From Bryopsis sp. KO-2023 (taxonomy: Eukaryota; Chlorophyta; Ulvophyceae; Bryopsidales; Bryopsidaceae), in assembly GCA_030272585.1 (NCBI GenBank), contig BSYQ01000005.1, positions 806,001-870,000 of the forward strand: DNA of 64,000 nt. The letters run 5' to 3'. Made by a program: the position numbers and the translations under genes. Shown here in pieces: positions 1 through 23,514 of the stretch (positions are counted from its first letter, which is position 1; each line of letters starts with the position of its first letter). The notes under the pieces were generated by a model, which did not search any database, was not told the origin of the DNA, and saw only the letters and a program-made list of their open reading frames with translations.

Positions 1-922
1 CCACGGCCGCCTCCACCTCTGTTGCCTCCTCCCATTTGCTGATTTTGATCTTGGGGTGGAGGTGGTGGTTGCGGTTGCTGACCCTGCATCTGCTGGTTCT
101 GGTCAGCTTTGGGCTTGTTTTTCCAATTCCAGTTCCATCGCCCTCGTCCGCGACCACGTCCGCGGTTGTTTTGAGATTGGCCACCCAACGAATCGATTCT
201 TTCGGCAGTGACTATCGCCGCTTCCACTCCTTCTGTCACCATTGTAACAACTTGATGTCGGATCTGGGGTTTCAATCCGTCAACAAACTGTAGGTACTGT
301 TCCTCCTCCGTCATATTCGGAATTCTGAGTATGAGATCCCGAAATGCGTTGATGTAGGAACGAACATTCCCTGTTTGTTGAAGTTTCCGCAGCTTCCTAC
401 GCGAAACATCGGACATCCTTGTGGGCTCAAAAGCAATGGCTAGTTCCTCCACAAGTTGAATCCAGTCCTGGAACATCGGACGAACTCCTTCCCGAATCCG
501 CATCTCTTGCATATTCCGCCATGTGGCGGCTGAACCAGAGAGATTTGTGCGGAATACTTTAAGCCAAACAGACTCATCCAAATCATACACTTTGCAGAAG
601 TTGGTGAGTTCTGCCTGCCAATCCCGAATCCAGCGATCTCCAGCGCCAGTATACGGTTTCGGCATCGGGAATTTGACCGCATTGGGAATGTGAAGCAAAC
701 GATTTTCTGGACGTGCATAGCCCATAAAATCGGGGTCCCCACTTGGGGGACCAGGAGGTCCGCCTCCTCCGCCACCTCCACCACCACCATCTCCAGGACC
801 GCCTCCTGGGTTCCTAGATGGTCCTTCTCTTCCTCCACCAATATGTGGTCCAGGTGCAGACCCACGGCCACTTCTGTCCGATGGGCCTCCGCCACTTCCA
901 TCACCGGAACCATCATCATCTC
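1..922 (-). CDS. gag: Ty3/Gypsy-type gag, C-terminal part (split by an inserted LTR element; runs off window)
   Basis: The minus strand is open from 922 to the window edge. It encodes a Gly/Asp-rich start, then a Retrotrans_gag-type core with the run WIRDWQAELTNFCKVY, then LSGSAATW, followed by a helical region and an Arg/Gly-, Gln/Pro-rich tail typical of nucleic-acid-binding gag C-termini. No CCHC zinc knuckle is visible before the window ends. The gag core packages element RNA into particles. The first half of the same gene lies at 10024-11892. Removing the inserted element together with one copy of the 5-bp target duplication leaves the two halves in one frame. Protease and polymerase genes would lie beyond position 1. 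Family call is firm; superfamily (Gypsy rather than Copia) is inferred from gag only. Confidence 0.8.
918..922. repeat. Target-site duplication, left copy (ATCTC)
   Basis: ATCTC directly abuts the left LTR that starts TGAAAC. The same five bases directly follow the right LTR at 10024-10028. A perfect 5-bp duplication is what LTR-element integrases leave. Confidence 0.9.
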
Positions 923-1483
923 TGAAACAAGCTACTTTTTTCAAGGTCCCCTCGCCCTCCTAGAGGAGGACGAGTGCCTTCCTCAAGCGTCTCGTTAGAT
1001 AGAACTTCCTTACAAGAATAAAGTTATAAAGAAGATACAACGACCTTTTCCTTCCACACTCTTATACCCTAGCGCCACAGCGCATCAAACCCTTGTTCCT
1101 GTCGACGTGTCACTATTCACTAGGAATTCACACATCTCCTTGCCACCTCAACTGTGAACGTGCCCCTATTCCACGAGAACTCACACGTCCAATTGACAAC
1201 TCGACTTTGATGGCTGCCACATCATCATCCATCAAACTCCATCGAGCTTGGTTGTAGTCGTGACTCCAAGGGTGTCGCACTACTGCACCTCTGCACCTCT
1301 GCACCTCTGCACCTCTGCACCTCTGCACCTCTGCACCTCTGCACCTCTGCACCTCTACACCGCTGCACCGCTGCACCTCTGCACTGCTGCACGCTGCATC
1401 CACCGCTGCACGCTGCACCGCTGCACCTCTGCACTGCTGCACGCTGCATCCACCGCTGCACGCTGCACCGCTGCACTGCTGCA
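923..1483 (-). repeat. 3' LTR of the inner element
   Basis: 561 bp beginning TGAAAC and ending TGCA on the plus strand. It matches 9471-10023 with an offset of 8548 bases until the internal octamer array. It carries nine copies of an 8-bp unit (CTGCACCT type) at 1283-1354, whereas the other LTR has eight, which accounts exactly for the 8-bp length difference. A degenerate CTGCAC-rich region (1355-1483) follows in both copies. Spurious ORFs rich in Cys-Arg-Gly-Ala-Glu-Val come from this array. Confidence 0.9.
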
Positions 1484-2167
1484 CGCTGCACTCCTACACG
1501 CCGCACTCTCGCACGCTGCTCCTACACGTTGCACTCTTGCAACCTTCCCTTTTTCAGCTGCAGGAAGCATGGCAACTACTCTTGTAGTTCCAGCTCGAGT
1601 GCTGCGATAACCAACCGTTACATTCCTCCCCACCAGGTTGGCAGTAAGTTCCAACACTGCCGTGGAGAGCATGTCTCAAATAAAACCCGTTGCATAAAGT
1701 ATCACAATCCATAAGGCATCTCACAATCCAAATCAGAATATCTTTCAGTGTCCAAACACGAAAAGAGTACGAGACTAGCATAATATTTTCTTTCGCTTTG
1801 TCCATAAAATCGAGAAAATCATCTCTCTATTTCAATCTGAAACTGAAAATGAAAAACATCTGGCTGAAAAGAAAATCCTTTAACATTCAGAAAATCATCT
1901 TGTATCACTCCAGAAATATACTTCTGTCCATCAAGTATTCCACCAATGTTTTCCTTTGCTCATATATATCTTTTCTCAAACCAGGTGAAAGGACAACTAA
2001 TCATGCTCTTTCTTTGAACCATTCATTCACCTCCAAGTCACTGAATAATCTTTTGAAAAATCAGCATTCTTTTTTTATTTTATTTCTTTCAAATCTCTCT
2101 TCCGCACACTGAAATATCCTCTCTTTGCTCTTGAGTTTCCAGAGCTCCTCTTCTTGCAATATTTGGA

Positions 2168-2168
2168 T

Positions 2169-2200
<32 letters not shown>
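2168..2200. repeat. GCT trinucleotide microsatellite in element interior
   Basis: About ten consecutive GCT units with one change, inside the non-coding interior of the inner LTR element. No coding function is seen. Confidence 0.8.
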
Positions 2201-2201
<1 letters not shown>

Positions 2202-2412
2202 TGCATCTAACGCAACCTCGTTTATCATCACTTGAGACTCCCGTGGATTGCTGCTGCTGCACCATGCTGCAGCCTGATTTGTCTCCACTAGAGACTCTCC
2301 AGTTTGTCACATTCCAGCTTCACTTAATTCCTTGGCTTCTGATCTCTTGATTCGACAGCGCATAAGCTTTTATGGAGTCCCGCTGTTTGCTTTCCCGAAC
2401 TGCAAGTTTCTT

Positions 2413-2590
2413 CACCTCGATTGCACTCCAGAATTTCTGCAATGCAGTCTCCATCATCAAGCTTTCTCCAGAATTTCTGCACTTCCATTCTCCAGAATTT
2501 TTGCATTTCCAGAATCCAGAATTCTTGCACTTCAATACTCCAGAATTTCTGCACTTCCATCGCACTCCAGAATTTCTGCGATGTACTCTC
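2413..2590. repeat. Degenerate tandem repeat, CCAGAATTTCTGCACTTCC type
   Basis: The motif CCAGAATTTCTGCACTTC recurs about six times with changes of spacing. It lies in the element interior and explains overlapping ORFs on both strands there, none of which looks like a gene. Confidence 0.75.
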
Positions 2591-3545
2591 CTTAATCCAC
2601 GCTTATTACAACATGTTCCATTGCTGTCAAATTTTGACAACCTCTTGATACTTCAAGAACATCAGAAGCAATGTTCAGAGAACCATACTGTTCTCCACAA
2701 TATGTTCTAACCTCCAACAAAGTTCGAGATATCCGAAACATTCATTTGAATTAGTTTCATGTCAACGAACTGATTCGATTCTCAGCACTTCAATAGAAAC
2801 ATCCAGTTGGTTCCATTGCCCTCAAGGGCTACCAGAAAATTAACCAACTCTGTCCACTATTCTTCCCTCTCTGGAATTATGTGCTCCCACCAACGAGGCA
2901 CCTGAAAATAAAATAAAATATCCAGAGGGTTGCTCTCATGTTTTCTTTTTTTACTTGTGCTCCCTTCATTGGGGCACCAAATGAATGCCTGAAAATTTCC
3001 ATAGCATTTTTTCCCTTCAGAAATTTTGCTGCCTTCTGTGGGTATCCACAAAATATTCACTCTCACTCTGTTCCTTCCCTTTTCTTTCATTCCATACTCT
3101 CTCGTTCCCCATTCATCAAGCCCCACTGTTCCAAGTGGAACTCAAAATCATATGTTCTTTTTTCCAGTCATCAAGCCTCACTGTCCCAAGTGAGACTCAA
3201 CATCAGATGCTCAAAACAACATCAGCCCCGAGACTGATGTCCCAAAAATAAACCATACACTTGCTGCACTAAACTCGTGTTGAAAAACCCGCTGAAAGCC
3301 CCCTCCCCACCAGCTTTAGGCAGTCCCTTGCCTAACAATAGGATTCAAAACTGAGTGAGGGGCAATCAATGTTGCCACGAGTGATCACAACGATATAAAC
3401 AATCATCAATATCGAAGGGAATGTTCAGAAACAAACCACACTCACGGCATTGCACCGCCGTCGTGTGCAACGGAGATAAGGAAGCAATATACTCAGGGAG
3501 ATTGAGGAGAAGCTTTTTGTGATTCTTCAGTGAGGAATCTTCACT

Positions 3546-3866
3546 TCAGTGGCAGTGGATCTCGCCATTCCTCTGAACCTCCAGGCACATGCAAGCCTTG
3601 CATGTTCTTCTTCCAAGGTAATCCAATTCCATTCTCCGTATCGATTGTAGCACAATCGTTGCATTCACAGTGTTGTATTCTTGAACATCTTCACTGAGCT
3701 TGGGAAAATCTGACATCACCAATGGTGATCCACCATTCACTTTGCTGCTAATGGCCTGCAGGCTGCAGCCAGTCAAAGCGATAAATAAGGCGTACGTGTG
3801 CTCGTTCAGGCTTGAGAGCTCACGGGATGTAAGATAAATCCCATATATTTTATCAATATAGTTCAC
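3546..3866 (-). CDS. Possible ORF in the inner element, 106 aa, unknown
   Basis: The longest protein-like ORF in the interior, in the same orientation as the element. Composition is balanced, without low complexity, and the end is Cys-rich (C-x2-C-x-C). I do not recognise a family. It could be a remnant of a captured host exon or of a decayed element gene, or simply a chance ORF. No ribosome or splice context supports it, so it is recorded only as the best candidate for coding content in this 8-kb interior. Confidence 0.15.
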   Translation of the reverse strand: MNYIDKIYGIYLTSRELSSLNEHTYALFIALTGCSLQAISSKVNGGSPLVMSDFPKLSEDVQEYNTVNATIVLQSIRRMELDYLGRRTCKACMCLEVQRNGEIHCH

Positions 3867-4820
3867 ACCACCATATTGCCTACAGAAGAAGCTCCAGTTA
3901 GCTCTACTCCCTTTGCAATCTTCCTACACTTAAGTCATGGGGGAAGTTTTCTCAACCCCTACGTGAAACACCGGTACGGCTGTAACACTACGGGAGCTAC
4001 CCGTTTGACGCTAAAGTGTGTGTGGATAATATCCAAGCGCCATTGACGTCGTATGGGTGCTTCTCCAAGAGGCGGCGACAAACGTTCGACCGCTTTTTGG
4101 AGGTAACAAATAATTCTTGAAATCTGGAGGGGCCCTCCGTCGAGTCGGCTCTCCTCAAACCTTCTACAGGTGGCTCTAGGCGATAGTCGTGCACTGACCT
4201 TAGGTGGCTATTAGCTCTGCCTAAGCTCTCAATTGGTTCAGAATCGGGAGGGAACCCATCCCACACTCCCCTATTCTTGGCGACAGGTGGCCTATAGGCT
4301 ATAGGCTATGGCTCTTCCTGTTCCCACAATCGAGTACAAGTGGCCCCAAGGCTCGCTTGTTCTTTGTGCGTTCTTGCTTGTCTCAACTCCTTGAAACTCG
4401 GTACAGGCGGCCCAGCCTGAGCACTTTCTCATTCATCAGGGGGATCTCTCTCTCAACCCCTTTTGATCTCCGCGGCTGCACCACAAGTTCTGAGAGTGGC
4501 CGTAAGGCACTTCTCTCCTTGTTATCACATGAACTCTGTTGGCCATTCCCTTCTTCAACCCCGCCACTAGTCTTGAGAGAGGCTCAAGGCACTTCTCTCT
4601 TAGTGGTCTGGGTTTCATCATATGTATTTTACTGTAATTGCTCTCGCGTCGCTCCATGTCCGCGATAGTATCATCTCTCTCGGCATGCAGTTGCATTCTT
4701 GCCACAAATAAAAGTGGGTGTTCTCTGATAGAACTCCATAGCCAATGCTTTTGGCTGCAACTCTTGATGCTCCTTTGTTGTGGGCTGTGGCATCAGCCCC
4801 TCTTTTCCAACTCGTTGTCG

Positions 4821-5005
4821 GTTGCTGCATCAGCACCTTAGTCAAATCCTTGCTATAGGTTGCTGCATCAGCACCTTGTCCAAATCCTTGCTTTGGTTGC
4901 TGCATCAGCACCTTGTCCAAATCCTTGCTCTGGTTGCCGTATCAGCACCTTGTCCAAATTCTTGCCTTGGTTGCTGCATCAGCACCTTGTCCAAATCCTT
5001 GCTGC
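4821..5005. repeat. 37-bp tandem repeat, five copies
   Basis: Five head-to-tail copies of a unit beginning GTTGCTGCATCAGCACC and ending CAAATCCTTGCT, with a few substitutions. There are no unique spacers between copies. The block sits in the non-coding interior of the inner LTR element. Confidence 0.88.
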
Positions 5006-8000
5006 AGCTTGCGTGCAGCTCTTGTTTCCACATTCAAGATCTCTTCTTCACATAGTAACAGGTGCAAATCCTGGCTGCGGCACAAACACCGGACCAGTCC
5101 AGGCTGCACATCAGCCAAAGATGCCATGTGTTGATCTCTTAGCAACTCAAAACTGAGCTCTGGACTGAGTATGTCTTGGGATACCTCCCACATAAAGCTC
5201 ACTCCATCCATCTTCAGCGGTTGTTGCTTTCACTCTCTTGCACTCGCAATTTTCCTGAAATTTCCAGGTTGCAGCAATGATCCACACCAAGACAACATCA
5301 GCTTGCCAAGCCTGATTTGTCACCGGGCTGGACCATCCATAGTATGCCCTCTTCTTTCCACACATCTGTGTTGGGGCCTTAAGTCTCGGCAAGGGTGAAA
5401 AGACAACTTCAGCAACCTGAGCTTGCATCATAATGCACCAAAGCTCGCATCTTCTTCTTTTGTCCTTCTGACTCAGAAGTTCTGAGGTGGACACCATAAA
5501 CCTTTGGCTGCTTCACCATCAGAAATCTTTGATGCCACTGGTTGCTCTCACCACCGTGAATACAATCATCTCTTTGTGTCATTGGCAGAAACGGTATCGA
5601 TATATTCTTGGGCTGCGATCCACTTGTCCTCTTGCTCAAGCTGTTGGCCCTCATACATCAGCTCATATCAAGCCGGCAGTTCACAAGTCCCTTGAACTGT
5701 CGATTTTTCTGACCATTTTCCTTTGTCAACTGGGGTATTCTTGGCCTTGCTGTAGCCACTCCTTTCACCTCCAGTTTATTTGCCACCAGAGGTGTTGCCT
5801 TTAGTATAAGCAACCCTCTGCCACTGGTGCAAATACAAATTCGAATCAACTGATTCGCAAGCTTGATATCCTCTTTGTTCTCCAGAAGTCTCACAACATT
5901 CTGTCATAAACAACAGCCGGATCGCAATCGTTTCTCCAATCCTCTTTCTCCACCTGATAGACTTTTCTTTTCTATCCCATCCAGATGTGGGGACATGTGC
6001 CCTTCATTTTCTTGAAGAGACCTTCCTTTCTTAGGTCAGCCTCAGCCCTCCTTGGCTGGTGCACAAACTTGATCCTCCTTAATATCATCCACCAACTCAT
6101 GGTCCTTGACTGGATTTCAATGCACAGCCCATGCATTTTCCAGAGCTGTCATTCAACACAAGCTTTCAGAATTCCTTGACCATTCTCCACCACATCGGAC
6201 TCCAATATTTCAGTTCCACTATCAACAATATCAAGCCAGAAAACTCCACAAGAGATTTCTGCCTGAAACACCTTTCACATGACCCGAAACCTTCAAAAGA
6301 AAATCATTTTCCTCCTGAAATTTCCATCAGTAATCAGATCATTCCTTTTTTTTTTTTTTTTTTCTCATATGAAATAAATGCATGAAAGAGATTAATCCCC
6401 TGATCACTTCTTTTCTTCTCAATTCATCAACCATTCAGAAATTTGTATTTGCTATCCAAATTTTCCAGCAAGTGGTGAAAAGGTGTCTCTTTCTTCCCAT
6501 TTCTGTGGGTATAATCAAATGCAAAAAGAGAAACAAATACTCTGCCTTGATTTCTACAAATCTGTCCATTTTCTGCATCGAATTTCGAAAAGACCAATGC
6601 ATTCATTCAATCTGATGACAATACCACCAAACTCATCTCAAACTCTTGAAGAAGAGGTTCAGCATCAGCAAGTCATGTCCTCTGACTCCTACTGCTGGAT
6701 AAACATGAGTCACTTTGCATCCAATGGGTGCTCTCTTGCTGCAACTCTTGTATTGCAGCAATATCCCAGGGAAGATCATTCTTTGCTTTGTAGCACACTC
6801 AGAAATATTACTCAACAGCTCCTGTGGCATTTGTTGCATGTCTCCTTGAGTAATAATGATCTCCTTCCACTTGATGTGCATCCTCTTGTGCAAGTGTAGA
6901 TGGTATTGACTCAGCATTTCGATGTGATCTTCTCCACATCAGTAATTCTGATATTTGCCTTGGCATTCGTTGCAATATTTGCCATATCATACACTCCAAT
7001 GTATGTTGCAGTCAATGTGATACACATTGGCTGTATTGTTTCATGTGTTCATGTAAACAACACGTCATGGCTGCGGCATGTTCAACTCAGTTCGAACTGC
7101 GAAATCTGCTGGCAGTAGATGCTGCAGTCAATATGAATTCGTTGTGGTATCCCCAGATGCACCCGAGGTAACATCCATTCTTGATCGCACGCTTGATCCC
7201 AGTGGGTATCACACATAGTGCTTCAACAGCATCCTCGTTCAAGAGGTTCTCTCGTGTGTGTCGGTGCGCTACCTCAACCACAGTCTCATCATTGACTTCA
7301 TTATCATTCGCACTTGTTCCGTTCACTGTGTTGTCGTCGATGCCAACTTCGATGTATGTCTGCAACATTAACAATCGAATTGATTGCAACATTCGTTGGG
7401 GCGCTCTTGTCTTTGACGCCCTCGTTTGTGCCAGTGGCGGCGATACCTCCCACTGCAGCACTATATGACGACTGGGTTCCTTGCAGTCACGCTTCTCATT
7501 CTCTCTGAGAATTGTCTCGACAAAACTCTCGCGCTGCTGTCGCTTGGCTTATCAGCCCTGCATCACTTGTAGGTGATGCGGCGTGTTTTGCTTGGCGGGT
7601 GGTCACACTTTCCCTCAGAGGTCACAATCCAAACTTGCGTAGTCTTTTGCAGTTTGCTTTTGCGCTTGTGTAACTCCAAACTGGCGCACTTTGATGCAGT
7701 TCGCTTTTGCACATGGCTCACTTTCTTTGACGCCATCACTGGTGCGCGTCAGATTCATTTCTCCACGCACAAGCTGCTCAAGTCTTTGCCAAAAGCGCTC
7801 ACATAGCGTCAACACAGTCGACTGCACATTCCACCTTCAAGAGGTGTGGCTCAGTTCAGTGATCTTCGAAACATAGCACAATAGAAGACTTGTCGATGCC
7901 TCTGAGTAGTTGTCTAGTTCGACCAACTATTTTCGACAATCCTTTTGCTCCATCGCCATGCAATCAGCGCCTCAGGCTATCAGTAGCAACTGTGGCGTCG

Positions 8001-8866
8001 CGCTGTAACCGTTCGATCATCATTCGATCGAATTGCCTTTGTCGATTCGTCCTGCACATTGCGCAGCTACTGCAACATGCTGCTTTCATGTGCTGGAACC
8101 TTTCCCAATCATGCGGATGCTTCGCGTGCGTTCTCAGGGCGTTGCACTCTTGTCAGTGCCCAAACGCCTTCTGTAACTTCGTCTTTTCGCGTCCGAGGCG
8201 AGGCTTGCGCCTGCCACTTTCTTCCGTCGTTGCGCTTCCATCGCAACATCTGCATTTGCTGTAATCGCAATGTGCTGCATCATGCATCCTGCATGTAGCT
8301 TTCAATGCATCCCCTTCTTTGGGATTGCGTCTGTGTCTCCACAATCGCTTTGTGTTCTTGCAGCTTCGTCTGCATTCTCCACACCAACGATATCGAACTC
8401 ACCTCCCAAGGAGGTTTGCCCTGTTGTGTACAGTCTCCTCGACTTGTACAATAGAACGACCAGCCAGTTAGGTGGCTTAAGAGGGTTCGACTCCCTCTCT
8501 GGATCTCAAGCAAAGCCTCATGGACCTGGCGCTCGATAGCGACCAGCCAATAGGTGCTTCCAGAGGGTCTAACGACCTCTTTAGTCTTTAGGCGAGGCCT
8601 GAACAGCCGCTTCTCTTGTTTGCCTTTTCGAGATCCTCAAAGAGGAAAACGTTAGATCTTAGGTTACCCTAGCAGGGTGTCAGATCTTTCACTGGTCAGC
8701 CTTGCGCTGATCCCAGCGCCTGGGTGGACGCTCTCCAGCGACCCACGCGACTTGGGCGAGCTTGTCTCTTGCAGTCGATTGCTGTCAGAAAGGGGGAGTC
8801 GGCACTGACGACTCGTCATGGTACGACCTCAGCCCAAAAACTTCGCAGGCTCCAGTTGTTGCTGCT

Positions 8867-8990
8867 GACTCTCTTGCTGGGTCACACTGCGCAGTTGTTC
8901 CTCACGATCTGCGACTCTCTTGCTGGGTCACACTGCGCAGTCGTTTCTCACGACCTGCGACTCTCTTGGAAGGTCACACTGTTGGGCTTC
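8867..8990. repeat. 46-bp tandem repeat, about 2.7 copies
   Basis: Units begin GACTCTCTTGCTGGGTCACA. Two full copies are followed by a diverged partial one. Inside the element, close to its 5' end. Confidence 0.8.
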
Positions 8991-9093
8991 CACGAACTTG
9001 CTCTGCCATGCTCATTCGTCACTTCCACGTAGTGCAGGCTTGGTCAAGTCTGTTCGTCGTTCAAGAAACTCGAACCCCGGTAGTCAGAGACAG

Positions 9094-9205
9094 GTTCGGC
9101 GACGATACTTCTGTTTCTGGTTCGACGACGACACTTCTGGTCCTGGTTCGACGATGAGAATGCTGGCCCTGGTTTGACGACGACACTTCTGGCCCTGGGC
9201 CGTCT
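9094..9205. repeat. Degenerate tandem repeat, GGTTCGACGACGACACTTCTGG type, about four copies
   Basis: Units of about 27 bp around GACGACACTTCTGG recur through this stretch. No coding signal is attached to them. Confidence 0.65.
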
Positions 9206-9457
9206 TCTTTGTCGTCCTCGCTGGCGATCACCTTTTCAAGGCTTCTTCAAAGCACGCTTTCGCTGGCACCACCATCACCACTGCAGATCGCTTTCCCCAC
9301 CCTAGTCCAAAGGGTCGACAGTGGTGGGTAACCTCTTTTCTTTGCAACGCTGCTCTTCTCCAGCGTCTCGGTAGTCCATACTTCCGTAGCTTCCATAGCT
9401 GCTCGCGTTCTCTTCTCATACAGGGTCGCACAATAAGTAACACTTATTTGCGCCTTT

Positions 9458-9469
9458 GCTCCGAAACCA
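9458..9469 (-). other. Primer-binding site of the inner element
   Basis: On the minus strand TGGTTTCGGAGC begins one base after the end of the 5' LTR. It starts with TGG, complementary to the CCA end of a tRNA, and differs by two bases from the common plant initiator-Met site TGGTATCAGAGC. The same 12 bases occur in the outer element at 12375-12386. It fixes the element's orientation as minus. Confidence 0.8.
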
Positions 9470-9470
9470 A

Positions 9471-10023
9471 TGAAACGAGCTACTTTTTTCAAGGTCCCCT
9501 CGCCCTCCTAGAGGAGGACGAGTGCCTTCCTCAAGCGTCTCGTTAGATAGAACTTCCTTACAAGAATAAAGTTATAAAGAAGATACAACGACCTTTTCCT
9601 TCCACACTCTTATACCCTAGCGCCACAGCGCATCAAACCCTTGTTCCTGTCGACGTGTCACTATTCACTAGGAATTCACACATCTCCTTGCCACCTCAAC
9701 TGTGAACGTGCCCCTATTCCACGAGAACTCACACGTCCAATTGACAACTCGACTTTGATGGCTGCCACATCATCATCCATCAAACTCCATCGAGCTTGGT
9801 TGTAGTCGTGACTCCAAGGGTGTCGCACTACTGCACCTCTGCACCTCTGCACCTCTGCACCTCTGTACCTTTGCACCTCTGCACCTCTGCACCTCTACAC
9901 CGCTGCACCGCTGCACCTCTGCACTGCTGCACGCTGCATCCACCGCTGCACGCTGCACCGCTGCACCTCTGCACTGCTGCACGCTGCATCCACCGCTGCA
10001 CGCTGCACCGCTGCACTGCTGCA
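9471..10023 (-). repeat. 5' LTR of the inner element
   Basis: 553 bp, TGAAAC...TGCA on the plus strand. It has eight octamer units, two of them with substitutions, and one further substitution near the left end relative to the other LTR. The target duplication follows immediately at 10024. Confidence 0.9.
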
Positions 10024-10028
10024 ATCTC
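10024..10028. repeat. Target-site duplication, right copy (ATCTC)
   Basis: The same five bases as 918-922. On the minus strand they read GAGAT, which is the last Gly/Asp codon region of the gag N-terminal half. Confidence 0.9.
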
Positions 10029-11892
10029 CACCTCCGCCTCCTCCGCCTCCTCCGCCTGCGCGTTGAGGAATACGCGGATAGGATCCCCATCCTACATAGG
10101 GGTTTCCGGATGATGGAGCTCCGTATACATTCACGGAGTGACCTAAGATAGAAGGCCGAATGTATGATGCTCCCATGGCATAATAGCCGGGTGGTGAAAT
10201 CATTGATGGATGTGATAACACTGGCTGAGAAGCTGGTGGTGGCATGGGTAATGTTCTAGGTGGCTCGGGTGACGTGGTTGTTGGAGTTGTCAGCGGGACA
10301 GTTTGTACCACGGGAGAAGCCTGCGTACGCTGTGGCGGTTGTACTGGCTGTAATACCGCTGGTGGTCTTGTATTTGGTGTTTGTCCAAACACAGCGCTAG
10401 GCCTCACAGTCGGCCTAGGTACATTTCCCTGTCCGCTGATTGCACTGCCGCGCCCCACTCCAGGAATCATGACTGGGGGTGATGCAGGTCGGGTAATCGG
10501 TCTATTTGCCCGCGGGAATACTGGTGGTATTGGCGGGAAACCTACTGAATCCGGGGCAAAGCCGGATGAGGTTTGGGGCGGTTGACCGAATGGAATTTGT
10601 ACTTCGGACAATCTTGGTGGTTGTGCCACCGTTCTGGTTCCCGCGCCCGCCATAGCAGCCACAAGAGGTGTTTGTTGGGCGGCGGATGCCATGTGTGTGG
10701 CAACTGCTGCAGCATCTTTCTTCCGCCAAAACTCAAAGTTCGACGTGAACTTTGTGTCCGCTACATCCTCAAACACCTTCTTTAGCTCTTGCGCTGTTTC
10801 CGGGTCTTGTAGCATTTCCTGCAACATTTCCCGCGGCTCTCTGCTCCTTGTTGAGCTTCTTGATCTGCTTCTCCTTGAAGACCGACTTTGACTTCTTTTC
10901 AACTCCTCCATTTCCCCTTGTAATCTAGCCGCCGCTTCTTTCGCAGCCGCTGCCTCCTTTAACAAATAGGCTACTTCCGCATGATGCTGTATCTGAAAAC
11001 TTTCCGCTTTTTCTTGCGTCTCTTTGAGATCATACTTAACACGAACGAGTTCCTTGAACTGTTTGTCTTGACCCGCACCCATTTCCGCCTGCGTCTCTCG
11101 CAGTTCTTGTTGGACTGTATCCAGCCCCCAAAGGGCGTCGTTATATTGCCGGTCATAATCTTCTTCAAGTTTCTTCCTTTTTTCGTCCGTGTCGGCCACT
11201 TGTTCCGCCAATATCCGCTGAGCCTCTTTGGCTTCGTCCACCTCTTTCTGGGCGACATCACGGATATTCGCCAAGCCAGCTTCCACTTGGCTGAGCCTTC
11301 CCTTGGCTGCAGCATCCAGATCTTGGATCCGCTCATCCAACCTTTCATGGAGCTGTCCTTCAATCTGGTGATGGCGGGACTGTAGAGTAGAGTCCAACAC
11401 ATCATGTACTTGGGAAGCCATGCTTGAACAAGCTCCCTCTACCCGACTATCAAGATGTTGGGCGACCTGGGCTGTCCTGTGGGCAGCCTCGTCCGACAAT
11501 TGGCTATACAACCGCTCTTGCGATTGTTGGAGATCGCGCTCCTGCAAACCGTCATTGTGAACGTGCAGAGTTTGATTATGTACATTCACTTGGCTTTGGC
11601 GCAGGTGCTGCGTTTGCTGATTGATGAATACTCCTGGCTCTTCGTCCATCTCTTCATCAAATTGCGGGCCATTGTCGGCTTCCTCATCGCCTCCCTCTTC
11701 CACCATATCCGGTTGTACGGGTATGCCATACGCTTGTAGCGGCTGGCCCATTTCTGCCTGGTAGGGCAGTCCGACAGCAGGTATGTCTCCAGCGACGATA
11801 ATCGGATATAGCGGCGCGCCAGCTGGGGCATCGCGCTCTTGATTGTCGTCCTCGATTCCATACTCCAGGAATAACTGCTCGTCGTCCCCCAT
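10024..11892 (-). CDS. gag: Ty3/Gypsy-type gag, N-terminal part (interrupted)
   Basis: Translation starts at the ATG ending at 11892 and stays open for about 620 codons up to the inserted element. The order is: an acidic N-terminus; a Gln/Asp-rich helical region with long coiled coil (residues about 110-340) of many Glu/Lys/Gln heptads; an Arg/Ser block (RSQSRSSRRSRSRSS); a short FEFWRKKDAAA segment; and a Pro-rich linker ending in about ten glycines. It then passes into the inner LTR, which adds a meaningless Cys/Ser/Ala tail in this copy. The coil probably drives particle assembly. Its continuation, carrying the conserved gag core, is at 1-922. Confidence 0.75.
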
Positions 11893-12374
11893 GGTGGATG
11901 TCTTGACTTGTCGGCGGGCTGATCACGTGTCAGTTCGGTGAATCACTTTGCCGGTGATCCACGTGACTAATTTGTCACTCTTTGTCGCGCAATTTCTGGC
12001 AGCGTAACTTTTGGCGGAGCTCCGTTTCCGTCTAAAGACGTCCGCTTAGCGGTTCCGCTTCGTCTGCCTTTCCGTTTAACCACGTTTAGCGTCGACAACT
12101 CTGCGACGACCTGAAGGTCTACTACGCCGTGCTGTGTGGTCGTAGAGTCCGAGGATCTACAGATCCTGCGCGATCTTCGAGGGAATGATCAGGCGCAGCA
12201 ACGTGCGTTCTGTGTCGTCCAGCGTAAAGTTGGTGCGCAGCAACACGAAGTAGGTTCCAGACACGAGAGGAAACCTTCTTCGACCTAGTTGACCTGATCT
12301 TTCGCAACTCGACTGCTAAATTCCCTGTCGATCTTTTCGAAAAGAAGACTCGACTTGCAGTAGGGGTTGCTTCG

Positions 12375-12386
12375 GCTCCGAAACCA
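12375..12386 (-). other. Primer-binding site of the outer Gypsy-type element
   Basis: On the minus strand TGGTTTCGGAGC (extending to CCG) lies three bases inside the putative LTR and about 480 bases before the gag start, the expected place. It matches the inner element's site, so both probably prime with the same tRNA. Confidence 0.7.
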
Positions 12387-12389
12387 GTT

Positions 12390-12558
12390 TGTTAGGCCCT
12401 GTTTAGCTAGGCTTTCACTGGGAGGTTGTGTGCACACTTGAGTTTGAGAAACGAGTGAACAGGGGTGAAACTCGACACTCAGAGATAATTAAGTTTTACA
12501 AGTTCTCTCTGAACTTATCACCCTAGAACCCGAATACCCGTACCACGACTGTACTACA
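12390..12558 (-). repeat. Putative 5' LTR of the outer element (169 bp)
   Basis: On the minus strand this begins TGTAGTACAG and ends GCCTAACA, that is TG...CA, just before the primer-binding site. The right edge is set where the reading frame of an interrupted tyrosine recombinase resumes at 12559. The partner LTR and its target duplication would lie left of the window, so the length is an inference from ends only. Confidence 0.55.
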
Positions 12559-12780
12559 ATTCAAACGTTCGTATCACTGCCTAAAGGGTGTGTGTATGGC
12601 CATCACTCTCTTCGTCGGGGCGGCGCATCCGCAATGTATGCGATAGGGATTAGTGAAGGGGACATTAAATTTTGGGGGGGGTGGTCTGCATCGTCGACGG
12701 CCGTTTGGTCGTATATCGACAAAGCGCAGGTCGCGACGGAGTCCGACTTGTTATTTTTTGCATGGAAAAAGCGGAGCTGA
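12559..12780 (+). pseudogene. DIRS/PAT-type tyrosine recombinase, C-terminal fragment
   Basis: The frame runs open from the LTR edge to TGA at 12780. It contains YGHHSLRRGGASAMYAIG, the H-x-x-R box of tyrosine recombinases. Then come WGGW, the position of the second His/Trp, and AVWSYID with the nucleophile tyrosine. The spacing and the R-G-G-A-S form are those of DIRS/Crypton transposon recombinases, not of host genes. The N-terminal half is missing because the Gypsy-type element inserted here; it should continue beyond the far end of that element, outside the window. Confidence 0.75.
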
Positions 12781-12867
12781 ATTCTTTTATTAAGTAGTTA
12801 TTAGGGACAGCTGGGGACCGTTTTTTTCATGGTATTTGATTCCTTACTGCTTACTTGTGAGTTAAGG

Positions 12868-12950
12868 GGCATTTAGTATTAATATGTTTAGCCTTTTGTG
12901 AAGAGAACTCCTCCAGCTTTTCTGGGTGGGATCCTCATGCAGTGGGTTAA
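12868..12950 (+). repeat. 83-bp direct repeat, copy 1 (possible split direct repeat of a PAT-like element)
   Basis: Identical by eye to 13385-13467. It starts GGCATTTAGTATTAATATG and ends GCAGTGGGTTAA, and lies 87 bases after the recombinase stop. PAT/Kangaroo-type DIRS elements carry split direct repeats (A1 - genes - B1 A2 - B2) after the recombinase, and this pair would be B1 and B2. Confidence 0.8.
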
Positions 12951-13384
12951 TGGCTAGTACGGTTAGTACGATAGGTTAAAGAACGCAATGACTCAGGGTG
13001 GGACGAAAAGCTATCCCTGGAAGGGACAGGTGACGCCAGTTGGGGATCCAGTCGGACTGGATCTTTGAATGATTGAGGGAGTAGTTCGCTTAAAAGAGGG
13101 CGGTTTTCATATTACAATCGAGGTTTTTCTCCCGCCCAATTTTTCCTTTTCGCGGGACTCAGTGGGAAAATTTCCCCCCCTTTTTTTGTTCGGTTTATAT
13201 TGGGTAGTCAGCCTGAGGGGCTTTCTCCCCTGTAGTTTGTGTTTTTTGTTTTTTCCAGTCCATTTTTTGGTGGGTGGAAAATGATCTGTCAAATTAATGC
13301 TTGTTAATGAGGGTTTGGAATGGTTAGGTTTGGGGACAAACAAACAAACAGTTCGAAGTGTAAACCAATATGGCATTTAATATT

Positions 13385-13467
13385 GGCATTTAGTATTAAT
13401 ATGTTTAGCCTTTTGTGAAGAGAACTCCTCCAGCTTTTCTGGGTGGGATCCTCATGCAGTGGGTTAA
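13385..13467 (+). repeat. 83-bp direct repeat, copy 2
   Basis: Second copy of 12868-12950, offset 517. If the PAT-like reading is right, the element's right end is near 13467. The 434 bases between copies would be the A2 repeat, whose A1 partner is outside the window. Confidence 0.8.
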
Positions 13468-19411: not shown

Positions 19412-22400
19412 TCATGGGCACCAAAACATGGGGGAGCATACATCTTGAGCCCAGCAGCTTGCGCAAACGGTGGAGTCTACAGGGCTGCAAGAATCGCAAG
19501 TGAGTCGACGCCCTGTGGTAGATCCACTTAGCTGCAAAAGAAGAAAGAAATACAAGAAGAATCAACTGCCTAAGGTAAAAATAAGGAATTCTTTTCTATT
19601 TATTTTTGATTCAATGTTCATGAACATGTAATTGAATTCAATTTACATTGAGCAAGCTTGCCCAACGAAGGGCGTACAAAACGATGTGATCTAGCCAATT
19701 TATTTACATATATGAAAGAAAAAGTGAGGATTCAACAAATGCAATACCCCAAAAAGGAAGAATTAACGATAGGCTCCAGAAGATGCATTGGTTGGCATTT
19801 ATGTATGGGGAAATGAAGTTGAGATTGGGCAGCTATGCTGTACCTTTAATATTTTTCTGAATTCGTGGAACAGCTCCATAGTATCTGTGGTTAGTTTCAG
19901 TTTAAATCCGGGGGGGGGGGGGAGCTGAATGAAAGAATTTGTTTATACAAGTTTCTCATTACTTTTTTCCCTTTCTATTCATTACGACAAGAACCCCCTC
20001 ACAAACTGATCAACGAGCGCTCTGCTGCCGAATTTCTTCAGTGAAACCAAAAAGAAAAAACCTTGGAAGAGCTTGTGTTCCATTTCTTTATCCTATCTTG
20101 TCGAGCCTCCAGTTTGAAATGTGCTGTTGAAGTAGGATTAATTCTTTGATATTTTTTAATTTTTTAAACCACAACACCACGCTTTTCGCCAAATATTCCT
20201 CAAGCAGTGAAAATCTGTCTTTCTGGAAGGGCAAAAACACAAGGCTCCAGCTTGACTTTATCAGATTTTCTTTTTTTTTGTCTGCAGTAAGTTTAGATTT
20301 AGGCGCAAGCAGACAATTGCACACATACCTGGGATGTGGGATCTGCTTGGATGATACTTAGCATCAACTCTCGATTGCTCAGTATCCCACTCATGGCATA
20401 TGCAAGCAGAGCCTGATCAAATGGCTTGTCTGGGAGAACACCAAGCAATGCTAAAAATAATAAAAGCAATCCAGCCAAAAAAAACACAGAATAAGGATTC
20501 AATGCAATTCATGGGTGCATTCCAGTCATCCACACAGCTCAAATCGAATCCTCTTTGAGGATCTGATAGTTTGTAAAAGCTTTCAAATGGATTTGATTGA
20601 GTTAAAACACCCTGTGGGGCAAAAACAAACTCCATGGCTGATGCACTTGATCAGGTCAACTGTCTTGTGAGTAAGAGGGGCCAATTGTGGAAAGAAACTC
20701 GACCTGACAAAACTGATTTCACTGAAAAGAAACTCAACCTGGAAAAACTGATCTGGCCATCACCCCAGCTAACTTTGAGGATCGCCCAGTATCCAGTGCA
20801 GATTGAGCCAACCCCTTAATGGTCACAACATCTCCATCCTTGAGCCGATCAGAAGTTCTTTTCAGAATGGAATCTACGTACGAAAGACACATAGGGTAAA
20901 AATCCAAAAAAAAAAAAATGAAAATCTTTTCATTTCAGAAATACAAAGAAAAAAAAGAAAACAAGGTGATGTCATTGATGATCTAATTTCTCGAAACCAA
21001 CACATTTTGAGGATTAAGGTAGCTAATATACATTTTTTTTCTTTCTGAACATTAGGGAGAATGCACAAATTTAAAGATGTGGATTTTCTTTTCTATGTAT
21101 TTTCTTAATTAAAAAAAAATGTTTCTTTCTCTTACTCTAGTTCAGGATGTTTTTTGTTGGAGGCTTTGTATCACAGTCATGGTGTTAACAAACCTCACAC
21201 TTTTCACAGGAAGCTTTTTGTTGAAAAGTTTTGTAACCAACTTGCATTACCATCTGGAGAAAATCTGAATCCTTCAGCTAGAAGGGACACGTCATCATTT
21301 TCATTCAGGACTTTGGCAACTTCAGTGAAATCCCCACTCCTAACAGCAAAACCTAATTGCTCCGATGCACTCAGGGTATCAGAAGGAACTTCAGGCGGAG
21401 GTGCAGGTGGAGGTGGAGGTGGAGGTGGATCAGAACCAGATGAAGAGGGAGAACTAGGTGGTGGATCAGGAGGCGGACCGGGAGGCGGACCAGGAGGCGG
21501 ACTGGGGGGCGGAACAGGGGGTGGACTGGGGGGTGGACTGGGGGGTGGACTGGGGGGTGGACTGGGGGGTGGACTGGGGGGTGGACTGGGGGGTGGACTG
21601 GGGGGTGGACTGGGGGGTGGATCGGGAGGCGGACCGGGGGGCGGAGCGGGGGGCGGACTGGGAGGCGGACTGGGTGGTGGAACAGGAGGCGGACCGGGTG
21701 GTGGACTGGGTGGTGGACTGGGTGGTGGACTGGGTGGTGGACCAGGAGGCGGACCGGGGGGCGGACTGGGAGGCGGACTGGGTGGTGGACCGGGAGGCGG
21801 ACTGGGTGGTGGACCAGGAGGCGGACTGGGAGGCGATGGTGGAGGAGAAGGCGGACCTGGGGGAAATGGAGGGCCAGGGGGAAACGGAGGACCTGGAGGG
21901 AATGGAGGGCCAGGAGGAAATGGAGGGCCAGGGGGGAACGGAGGACCTGGAGGAAAGGGAGGACCTGGAGGGAATGGAGGACCTGAAGGAAAGGGAGGAC
22001 CTGGAGGGAATGGAGGACCAGGAGGAAATGGAGGGCCAGGGGGGAACGGAGGACCTGGAGGAAAGGGAGGACCTGGAGGAAAGGGAGGACCTGGAGGGAA
22101 CGGAGGACCGGGAGGGAACGGAGGACCGGGAGCGGGAGCTGGAGCAGAGGGAGGTAACGGTGCTGATGGATTTGGAGGTTCTTCCTCGGTCCCACTCCCG
22201 TCCACAACAAGTGATGTCTCAATTGTGGGCTGTGGCAGTGGATCACTTGGATCAGCCACTGGCTCATCAGGAGAATCGGCACTGTCTCGACAGCCAGAGT
22301 CATTCGACTGGCACTGTTGCTCAGCCCTTCTGTTATCTCCATTCTTTTCAGCCTTTCTGGGTTGCCCAGTAATTCCCTCTTCATTTCCACCGGAAAAGAA

Positions 22401-23514
22401 CGATGCTGCAATCGCCTCACAAATCAATCTTTTTCAACAGTCTGACATGCGTTTCGGTGCCTAAACTTTTAGGCAGTTTCAACTGACATCTTGTTCCGTC
22501 GACTATGTTTCACCTCAAGACATCAGGTGTTCTATGTGAAGAAACCGAGCCAGCCGAAACTCTCTTACTCAAACTGACGGCTGTAGTCCAACAATACGAT
22601 CTTTCTCATGCATATTCACTTTCGCCAAAAAAAAAACAGGATGCCATTGTTCAATTGTGCAACACAAAATGATTACCGTCTCCTGAGACAGTACTGATTT
22701 ATGACCAACAGCAGGTACTCCACTGAATCCACACCATGAGAAAGATCCTATGGATGAGTAGTTCTGAGGCTGTTTCTCCAAAGCCAAAATAAACAATGAT
22801 AATTTGACTTGTCAGACAGAATGATAACACTACGAACATCTGCGCAGATAGATTTTTGTCTAAATTGATCCATAAAGGTGAAATGGGTGGCCACCTGTTC
22901 TAATGCTGGTTTTTCGAATCAAAAATTATGTTAAAGGCTTCCTTCTGTAACCAATTTTTTTTGTTCAGATTGACAAGAGCAATAAATTAATTGGCGAACT
23001 ACCTATCATTCAATCCAACAAATTCAGCAAACCCACCTTCAGAATCATCCCCACCCCGATTTATCTCCTGCAGGTCGTTGCCTTTCTCGTCCCTATCACC
23101 ATCATGTCTTCGCCTTCGCCTTCCGTTACCGTTACCATCACCATTACCGTTACCGTTATCATTTCTATTCCCGTTGCCCTTCTCGTTGCCCTTCTCGTTC
23201 TCCGCTGTCGGTTTGCTCTCTTCTTGCGTCCCCGCCCCACTCATTTCTTTTTTGGTTTTTTCTGAACCCCGTGATTTGCCTCTCCCCATGTCTTTCTCAT
23301 TTTCTTTCTCCTTCTCTCTCCCTGGCCCAGGTTCTTTTTCTTTCTGTTTCCCAATCCCCGTCTCCTTCCGCACCCCACTTCTTCGTTCTTTCTTTTTTCC
23401 TGTTCGTTTCTTCCCAAGCAGCCCACGACTTACGGAGAGCGAATCGACATCAGCAATTAGCGCCGCCACGGCCACCACGACGAAAAGAGTCTTTCTGGGG
23501 CTCGCCCCACGCAT
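19412..23514 (-). CDS. Secreted proline-rich (hydroxyproline-rich glycoprotein type) protein, about 703 aa
   Basis: Six exons with consistent phase: 23514-23037, 22405-21251, 20873-20739, 20637-20536, 20450-20329 and 19531-19412. The N-terminus has a hydrophobic signal stretch (KTLFVVVAVAALIADV). A very charged Lys/Glu/Gly/Asn region follows (residues about 25-160). Then comes a long proline domain of GPPFPP hexapeptides passing into PPPSPP repeats, the kind hydroxylated and glycosylated in algal walls. After that are about 160 residues with an alpha-helical, Ala/Leu-rich look (GLAQSALDTGRSSKLAG, QALLAYAMSG). The last exon is Cys-rich (CDSCSP...CASCW...C). It probably works in the extracellular matrix. 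The exon 4 donor is the least certain, and further small exons in the 797-nt last intron or at 22570-22800 cannot be excluded. Confidence 0.65.
21440..22135. repeat. G-rich minisatellite encoding the proline repeats
   Basis: Plus-strand units of 12 bp (CTGGGGGGTGGA type, 21440-21835) and then about 18-bp units (GGAGGACCTGGAGGGAA type, 21850-22130). Read on the minus strand they give SPPP-type and GPPFPP-type repeats. All three frames are open here, so long ORFs on both strands are by-products. Strong strand asymmetry (purine-rich plus strand) could form G-quadruplexes. Confidence 0.85.

Follow-up and report, generated by a model that had tools for sequence, protein, structure and literature searches.

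A young nest of four retrotransposons in Bryopsis sp. KO-2023 with one shortened long terminal repeat end

Nesting of long terminal repeat (LTR) retrotransposons is common in plants and often involves Gypsy elements (PMC6911290). Large retrotransposon derivatives (LARDs) are defined by LTRs, a primer binding site, a polypurine tract and a non-coding interior above 4 kb, and DIRS elements have so far been found only in green algae, not in land plants (PMC9033089). The repeat order A1...B1-A2-B2 has been described for PAT, Ngaro and VIPER elements (PMC6681497, PMC4157794). A putative methyltransferase domain separates PAT from Ngaro, in which it is absent. In this study, we analysed a 64,000-nucleotide stretch of the green alga Bryopsis sp. 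KO-2023 (the window, C5:806001-870000; assembly of 91 Mb in 28 contigs), together with stretches of C5 that lie to the left of the window and outside it (coordinates L009, L010 and L011). The region is a nest of four retrotransposons, namely, an outer retrotransposon with a putative tyrosine recombinase and three integrase-type insertions, Gypsy-1, Gypsy-2 and a LARD (Table 1).

The insertions lie one inside another or side by side: the outer element was hit by Gypsy-1, and Gypsy-1 was hit by the LARD and by Gypsy-2. Each insertion is accompanied by a 5-bp target duplication, namely, ATCTC (LARD), CTGCC (Gypsy-1) and GCAGA (Gypsy-2). The original prediction had described a nest of three layers; these layers were recovered, and a fourth element, Gypsy-2, which is located in Gypsy-1 pol outside the window, was missing from it. 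Just left of the window, the leftward extension that it proposed revealed the second LTR of Gypsy-1, the chromodomain-bearing pol and the missing half of the recombinase, as well as the left terminal repeat of the outer element.

Uninterrupted copies of each target site were found elsewhere in the genome, as the proposed search for empty sites had anticipated. At the gag site, 40 scored matches per side were compared (of 82 candidates for the right piece and 84 for the left piece). Among the matches listed, 24 pairs of gag pieces were adjacent, all overlapping by exactly 5 bases. Two further pairs were printed: the focal pair, 9101 bp apart, and a pair on C14, 14,921 bp apart, which joins different copies and whose left piece has no adjacent partner in the list. 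Because the gag pieces normally adjoin, the insert is exactly 923-10023 plus one duplication, and the predicted splitting of a Gypsy-type gag by the LARD, flanked by ATCTC on both sides, was confirmed. The gag frame was also expected to be restored when the LARD and one ATCTC are removed, and the phase is indeed the same after 9106 bases are discounted, a result of coordinate arithmetic only that has a chance of 1 in 3. The pol-site comparison took in 19 and 17 rows; the 14 adjacent pairs among the rows compared all overlapped by 5 bases, and three wider pairs were printed (focal, 10,094 bp; C14, 10,202 bp, from two neighbouring copies; C3, 13,034 bp). At the outer junction, the putative Gypsy LTR abuts the recombinase frame as proposed, and the frame in the window is partial, with its other half at L010:244-3057. 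A query across this junction (12559-12780) was covered whole at 0 of 20 other places; 19 of these places matched from query base 18-27 to 222, and one was split in two rows. The intact unit that would have refuted the prediction was thus not seen at these 20 places. Eleven of the 20 places were fetched as copies of the outer element, and the Gypsy-1 insertion site was whole in all of them.

The predicted order of recombinase element, Gypsy-1 and LARD follows from the geometry of the nest, from the duplicated targets and from natural copies in which each site is uninterrupted. The outer element, about 4.8 kb in length, was present first; Gypsy-1 then inserted near the end of the recombinase frame, duplicating CTGCC, and was hit in turn by the LARD in gag, duplicating ATCTC, and by Gypsy-2 in pol, duplicating GCAGA, with nesting giving no order of Gypsy-2 relative to the LARD. 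The repeat pairs across the nest are 99.7-100% identical outside a short array, thereby indicating that the nest is young. Differences amounted to 0/187 between the Gypsy-1 LTRs, 0/420 between the Gypsy-2 LTRs, 0/180 between A1 and A2 and 0/83 between B1 and B2 of the outer element. Between the LARD LTRs, which contain an array of 8-bp units, 1 of 361 positions differs outside the array; inside it there are two further substitutions and a difference of one 8-bp unit. The alignment of LTR pairs suggested for dating thus makes all insertions look young, and the numbers are too small to order them. Since the nest is fully bounded, with every junction resolved and uninterrupted copies for each site, it shows directly in what order the families came and how young they are. 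The nest shares nesting with Gypsy elements with the plant LTR retrotransposons described in PMC6911290; there, 3' untranslated regions are preferred and coding regions are seldom hit, whereas gag, pol and the recombinase frame are hit here, at one locus that provides no statistic. The nest is ordinary, young genome layering, and its single oddity is one shortened LTR end of the LARD.

The outer bounds predicted for the LARD stood, and its LTRs had to be corrected to 700 bp on the left and only 553 bp on the right. The right end is ...CCGTTACA in all of 10 further LARD copies, where a 5-bp repeat of the left flank comes next, so the family LTR is 700 bp long. In total, 32 LARD LTR ends were examined: 20 were complete outer ends, 11 ran into the interior (one of them from the focal left LTR) and one was short. 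This sole short outer end (1/21) belongs to the focal right LTR, which lacks the last 139 bp and is the upstream LTR on the element's own strand; the other outer ends were complete in 20 of 20 cases. The target duplication ATCTC directly abuts the shortened end. The outer end of the upstream LTR is set where plus-strand synthesis begins. The end of the LARD complementary DNA (cDNA) was probably already short at integration, through a plus-strand start inside U3 or through loss of the end before integration, either of which would give the observed short-LTR structure. Initiation of the plus strand within the repeat array of U3, at a point 139 bp beyond the usual start at the polypurine tract, is tentatively proposed as the event that made the upstream end. 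Integrase would then have accepted this internal TG end and duplicated 5 bp of target in the usual way. If true, an internal plus-strand start would be a natural one-step route to shorter LTRs in LTR elements. The short LARD end is an example in which integration of a cDNA with an abnormal terminus can be tested. No precedent for a shortened upstream LTR was found in the available portions of PMC4079200 and PMC3185511, and with this limited coverage of the literature no priority is claimed.

An alternative to a short cDNA end is a 139-bp deletion after insertion, at the 2-bp CA common to both breakpoints. The kept side ends in ...TGCTGCA and the lost stretch in ...GTTACA, and the completeness of all 20 other outer ends makes the defect private to the focal copy, as a deletion would. 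Such a deletion would have needed one breakpoint exactly on the boundary between element and target, within 2 bp, and the uninterrupted gag copies show no target base missing beside the short end; we therefore regard it as somewhat doubtful and prefer the end shortened before integration.

The outer element was assigned by the original prediction to the DIRS/PAT class, which held and was narrowed to the PAT-type repeat layout. Its repeats are split direct repeats, with A1 at the left end and B1-A2-B2 at the right end. Reverse transcriptase (RT) and RNase H are located in L010:233-2305 (RVT_1, E 1.3e-16; RT_RNaseH, E 1.3e-6; both above the cut-off). The reading of catalytic motifs in the putative recombinase is tentative. 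Both A copies were present in 9 of the 11 fetched copies, and the left end of the other two was not found in the fetched stretch. PAT-class elements are thought to insert by circle recombination without target duplication. In the nine two-ended copies, the left flanks differ and no duplication is evident, as expected of insertion by a recombinase.

Several observations on the outer element count against this account. The recombinase matches Phage_int_SAM_4 only at E 0.0004-0.0005 (21 bits, cut-off 27) and Cre at E 0.61, and its piece in the window aligns below the cut-off to the C-terminal end of Pfam Phage_integrase (E 0.16, positions 129-169 of 172). Ten of the 11 copies differ from CTGCC in the first base of the Gypsy-1 target, and one copy (L014) has CTGCC; in that copy the recombinase frame is open without a break. 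The focal recombinase has TAG where all 11 copies have TGG, so the focal gene is broken in two ways, by this codon and by the Gypsy-1 insertion. A different genetic code behind the TAG is unsupported, since every one of the 11 other copies has TGG.

The description of Toc3-type PAT elements appears to fit the outer element best, by description rather than by tree, on account of the forward recombinase, the internal repeats downstream and the gag-like open reading frame (ORF), in which Pfam detected no zinc finger. In PAT-like/Toc3-type elements of the DIRS order, as in the outer element with its putative recombinase, RT/RNase H overlaps a recombinase frame that runs forward, the direct repeats are split so that B1-A2-B2 follows this frame, and the gag-like ORF has no Pfam zinc finger; the difference is that recombinase matches of the outer element are sub-threshold (PMC4157794, PMC6681497). 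Membership in another group with a recombinase, for example Ngaro or Crypton, is unlikely. Ngaro has the same A1...B1-A2-B2 order (PMC6681497, PMC4157794), and the Pfam scan of the RT ORF detected no methyltransferase, with no search aimed at this domain made. The presence of RT and RNase H stands against Crypton. Cryptons are not known to have a reverse transcriptase. TTTAGGG-type repeats were found at 7 of the 12 contig ends from which a stretch was fetched. The presence of a PAT-type element alongside telomeres of this type is, like the short LARD end, a modest extra beyond an ordinary nest.

The LARD fits the definition cited above in its LTRs, primer site, polypurine tract and non-coding interior of about 7.8 kb, and differs from it in the shortened upstream LTR of the focal copy (PMC9033089). 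The primer site TGGTTTCGGAGC beside the LTR is common to the LARD, Gypsy-1 and Gypsy-2 and is complementary to the 3' end of initiator tRNA-Met with CCA. This shared site supports, without proof, the copying of the LARD by Gypsy proteins, and it ties the non-coding LARD to the chromodomain Gypsies. The LARD was probably copied and integrated in trans by proteins of a putative Gypsy helper, as the shared primer site suggests. The same site would suit a Gypsy that formerly encoded proteins and has since decayed, rather than a family spread in non-coding form. This origin is very improbable and finds no support inside the element: the LTRs are nearly identical, yet the interior gave no match below E 0.2 to five Gypsy proteins, and none of the 30 ORFs, interior or in the LTRs, of at least 100 amino acids wholly inside the LARD had a Pfam match above the cut-off (weak matches, E 0.003-0.096, all fell short of it). 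At least 12 further same-strand LTR pairs, 8.3-9.6 kb apart, were listed, so long copies are many. The LARD interior contains a short array of 37-bp units at 4783-5040. One further LARD copy (L031, C1:943 kb) lies in a Gypsy-1-type gag at a position matching window 11845, and another (L071/L072, C4:3.67 Mb) lies in a Gypsy-1-like pol with 83-87% identity.

Both Gypsies have paired LTRs with TG...CA and resemble chromodomain Ty3/Gypsy elements (chromoviruses) in gag, protease, RT, RNase H, integrase, a C-terminal chromodomain and 5-bp target duplications. The chromovirus layout was found, with RT and RNase H before integrase and the chromodomain at the integrase C-terminus; these domains lie in one ORF in Gypsy-2 and in two pieces in Gypsy-1 (Chromo, E 2e-12 and 6e-13). 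Between the LTRs of Gypsy-1, gag and pol are each split, and a third ORF in the sense direction is present; by Pfam, one part of pol holds protease and RT, and the other RNase H, integrase and chromodomain. Gypsy-1 without its two inserts is about 10.2 kb long by coordinate arithmetic and lies on the minus strand; Gypsy-2 is about 10.1 kb long, with gag and pol as long open frames. Both differ from chromoviruses in the third sense ORF after pol. Neither Pfam nor PHROGs gave a match to these third ORFs; among PDB chains, one ORF matched nothing and the other matched histone H2B alone, at E values of 0.15 and above. They match each other weakly (E 0.001), and synonymous sites were saturated in the comparison of nonsynonymous and synonymous substitution rates (dN/dS). 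An apparent Gypsy-1 relative at G000 C12:133400-141325 shows 99% identity in the gag piece, 89% in the pol piece and 36% protein identity in the third ORF, which is a 663-aa ORF (L105, C12:133400-135600) 36% identical over 625 aa; this relative is possibly a mosaic made by recombination, its status as one element being judged from position. An assembly error that joined separate repeats into a false nest can be dismissed as scarcely credible: all four families are repeated in the genome, and yet every LTR insertion is flanked by a 5-bp duplication of its own that matches, and the element that it disrupts resumes beyond the insert, neither of which a wrong join would give.

Table 1 Features of the nest (plain numbers are window positions; L009, L010 and L011 lie outside the window)
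Feature	Position	Strand	Evidence or remark
Gypsy-1 gag, downstream part (ORF 3-959)	1..922	-	Pfam Retrotrans_gag E 3e-14, above cut-off
LARD target duplication ATCTC, left copy	918..922	.	Flanks TG at 923
LARD-type non-coding LTR element in Gypsy-1 gag	923..10023	-	LTR pair, TG/CA, target duplication, uninterrupted copies
LARD downstream (3') LTR, full 700 bp	923..1622	-	Family end ...CCGTTACA
LARD polypurine tract GGTGGGGAGGAA on minus strand	1623..1634	-	Role from known LTR-element anatomy
LARD primer binding site TGGTTTCGGAGC	9458..9469	-	Complementary to initiator tRNA-Met 3' end
LARD upstream (5') LTR, 553 bp, without outer 139 bp	9471..10023	-	LTR end comparison
LARD target duplication ATCTC, right copy	10024..10028	.	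Flanks CA at 10023
Gypsy-1 gag, upstream part	10024..11892	-	Open frame; no Pfam match for this part alone
Gypsy-1 primer binding site TGGTTTCGGAGC	12375..12386	-	Beside LTR
Gypsy-1 upstream (5') LTR, 187 bp	12390..12576	-	Identical twin C5:789198-789384
Gypsy-1 target duplication CTGCC, right copy	12577..12581	.	Left copy L010:3193-3197
Putative tyrosine recombinase, C-terminal part	12577..12780	+	Open from LTR edge, stop 12778-12780; weak Phage_integrase match
B1 repeat, outer element	12868..12950	+	Identical to B2
A2 repeat, outer element	12951..13130	+	A1 at L011:9248-9427, identical over 180 bp
B2 repeat, right end of outer element	13385..13467	+	Identical to B1 over 83 bp
Gypsy-2 LTRs, 420 bp, identical	L010:7665-8084 and L009:7339-7758		Flanked by GCAGA; outside window
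Third sense ORFs after pol	L010:3552-5447 (Gypsy-1) and L010:8280-9998 (Gypsy-2)	-	Gypsy-2 ORF open at stretch end

The 3' half of initiator tRNA-Met is taken here to be plant-like. A first tRNA pattern (TTCGGAG acceptor arm plus TTCRA loop) gave no match, and the initiator tRNA pattern gave 27 matches, comprising 24 that were tRNA-like (23 identical, one variant) and three that were not; controls gave 0 and 3. The 23 identical 3' halves are found towards the right end of each of three contigs (12, 8 and 3), at G000 C5:6912104-7047807, C9:5578845-5671152 and C10:5077356-5128482, with a spacing of mostly about 11.0-11.5 kb. A 3-kb piece of one unit (L104, C5:7036100-7039100) contains eight tRNA genes by ARAGORN and seven by Rfam, and the clusters have the look of a multi-tRNA unit repeated in tandem close to the ends of chromosomes. 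As for linkage of these arrays to rRNA, 5.8S matches were on C24 and, weakly, on C28, among 39 of 2513 candidates scored. Elsewhere in the window, a tandem array of 9-18 bp units at 21109-22464 leaves both strands with several open frames, whose readings include proline-rich and glycine-rich ones.

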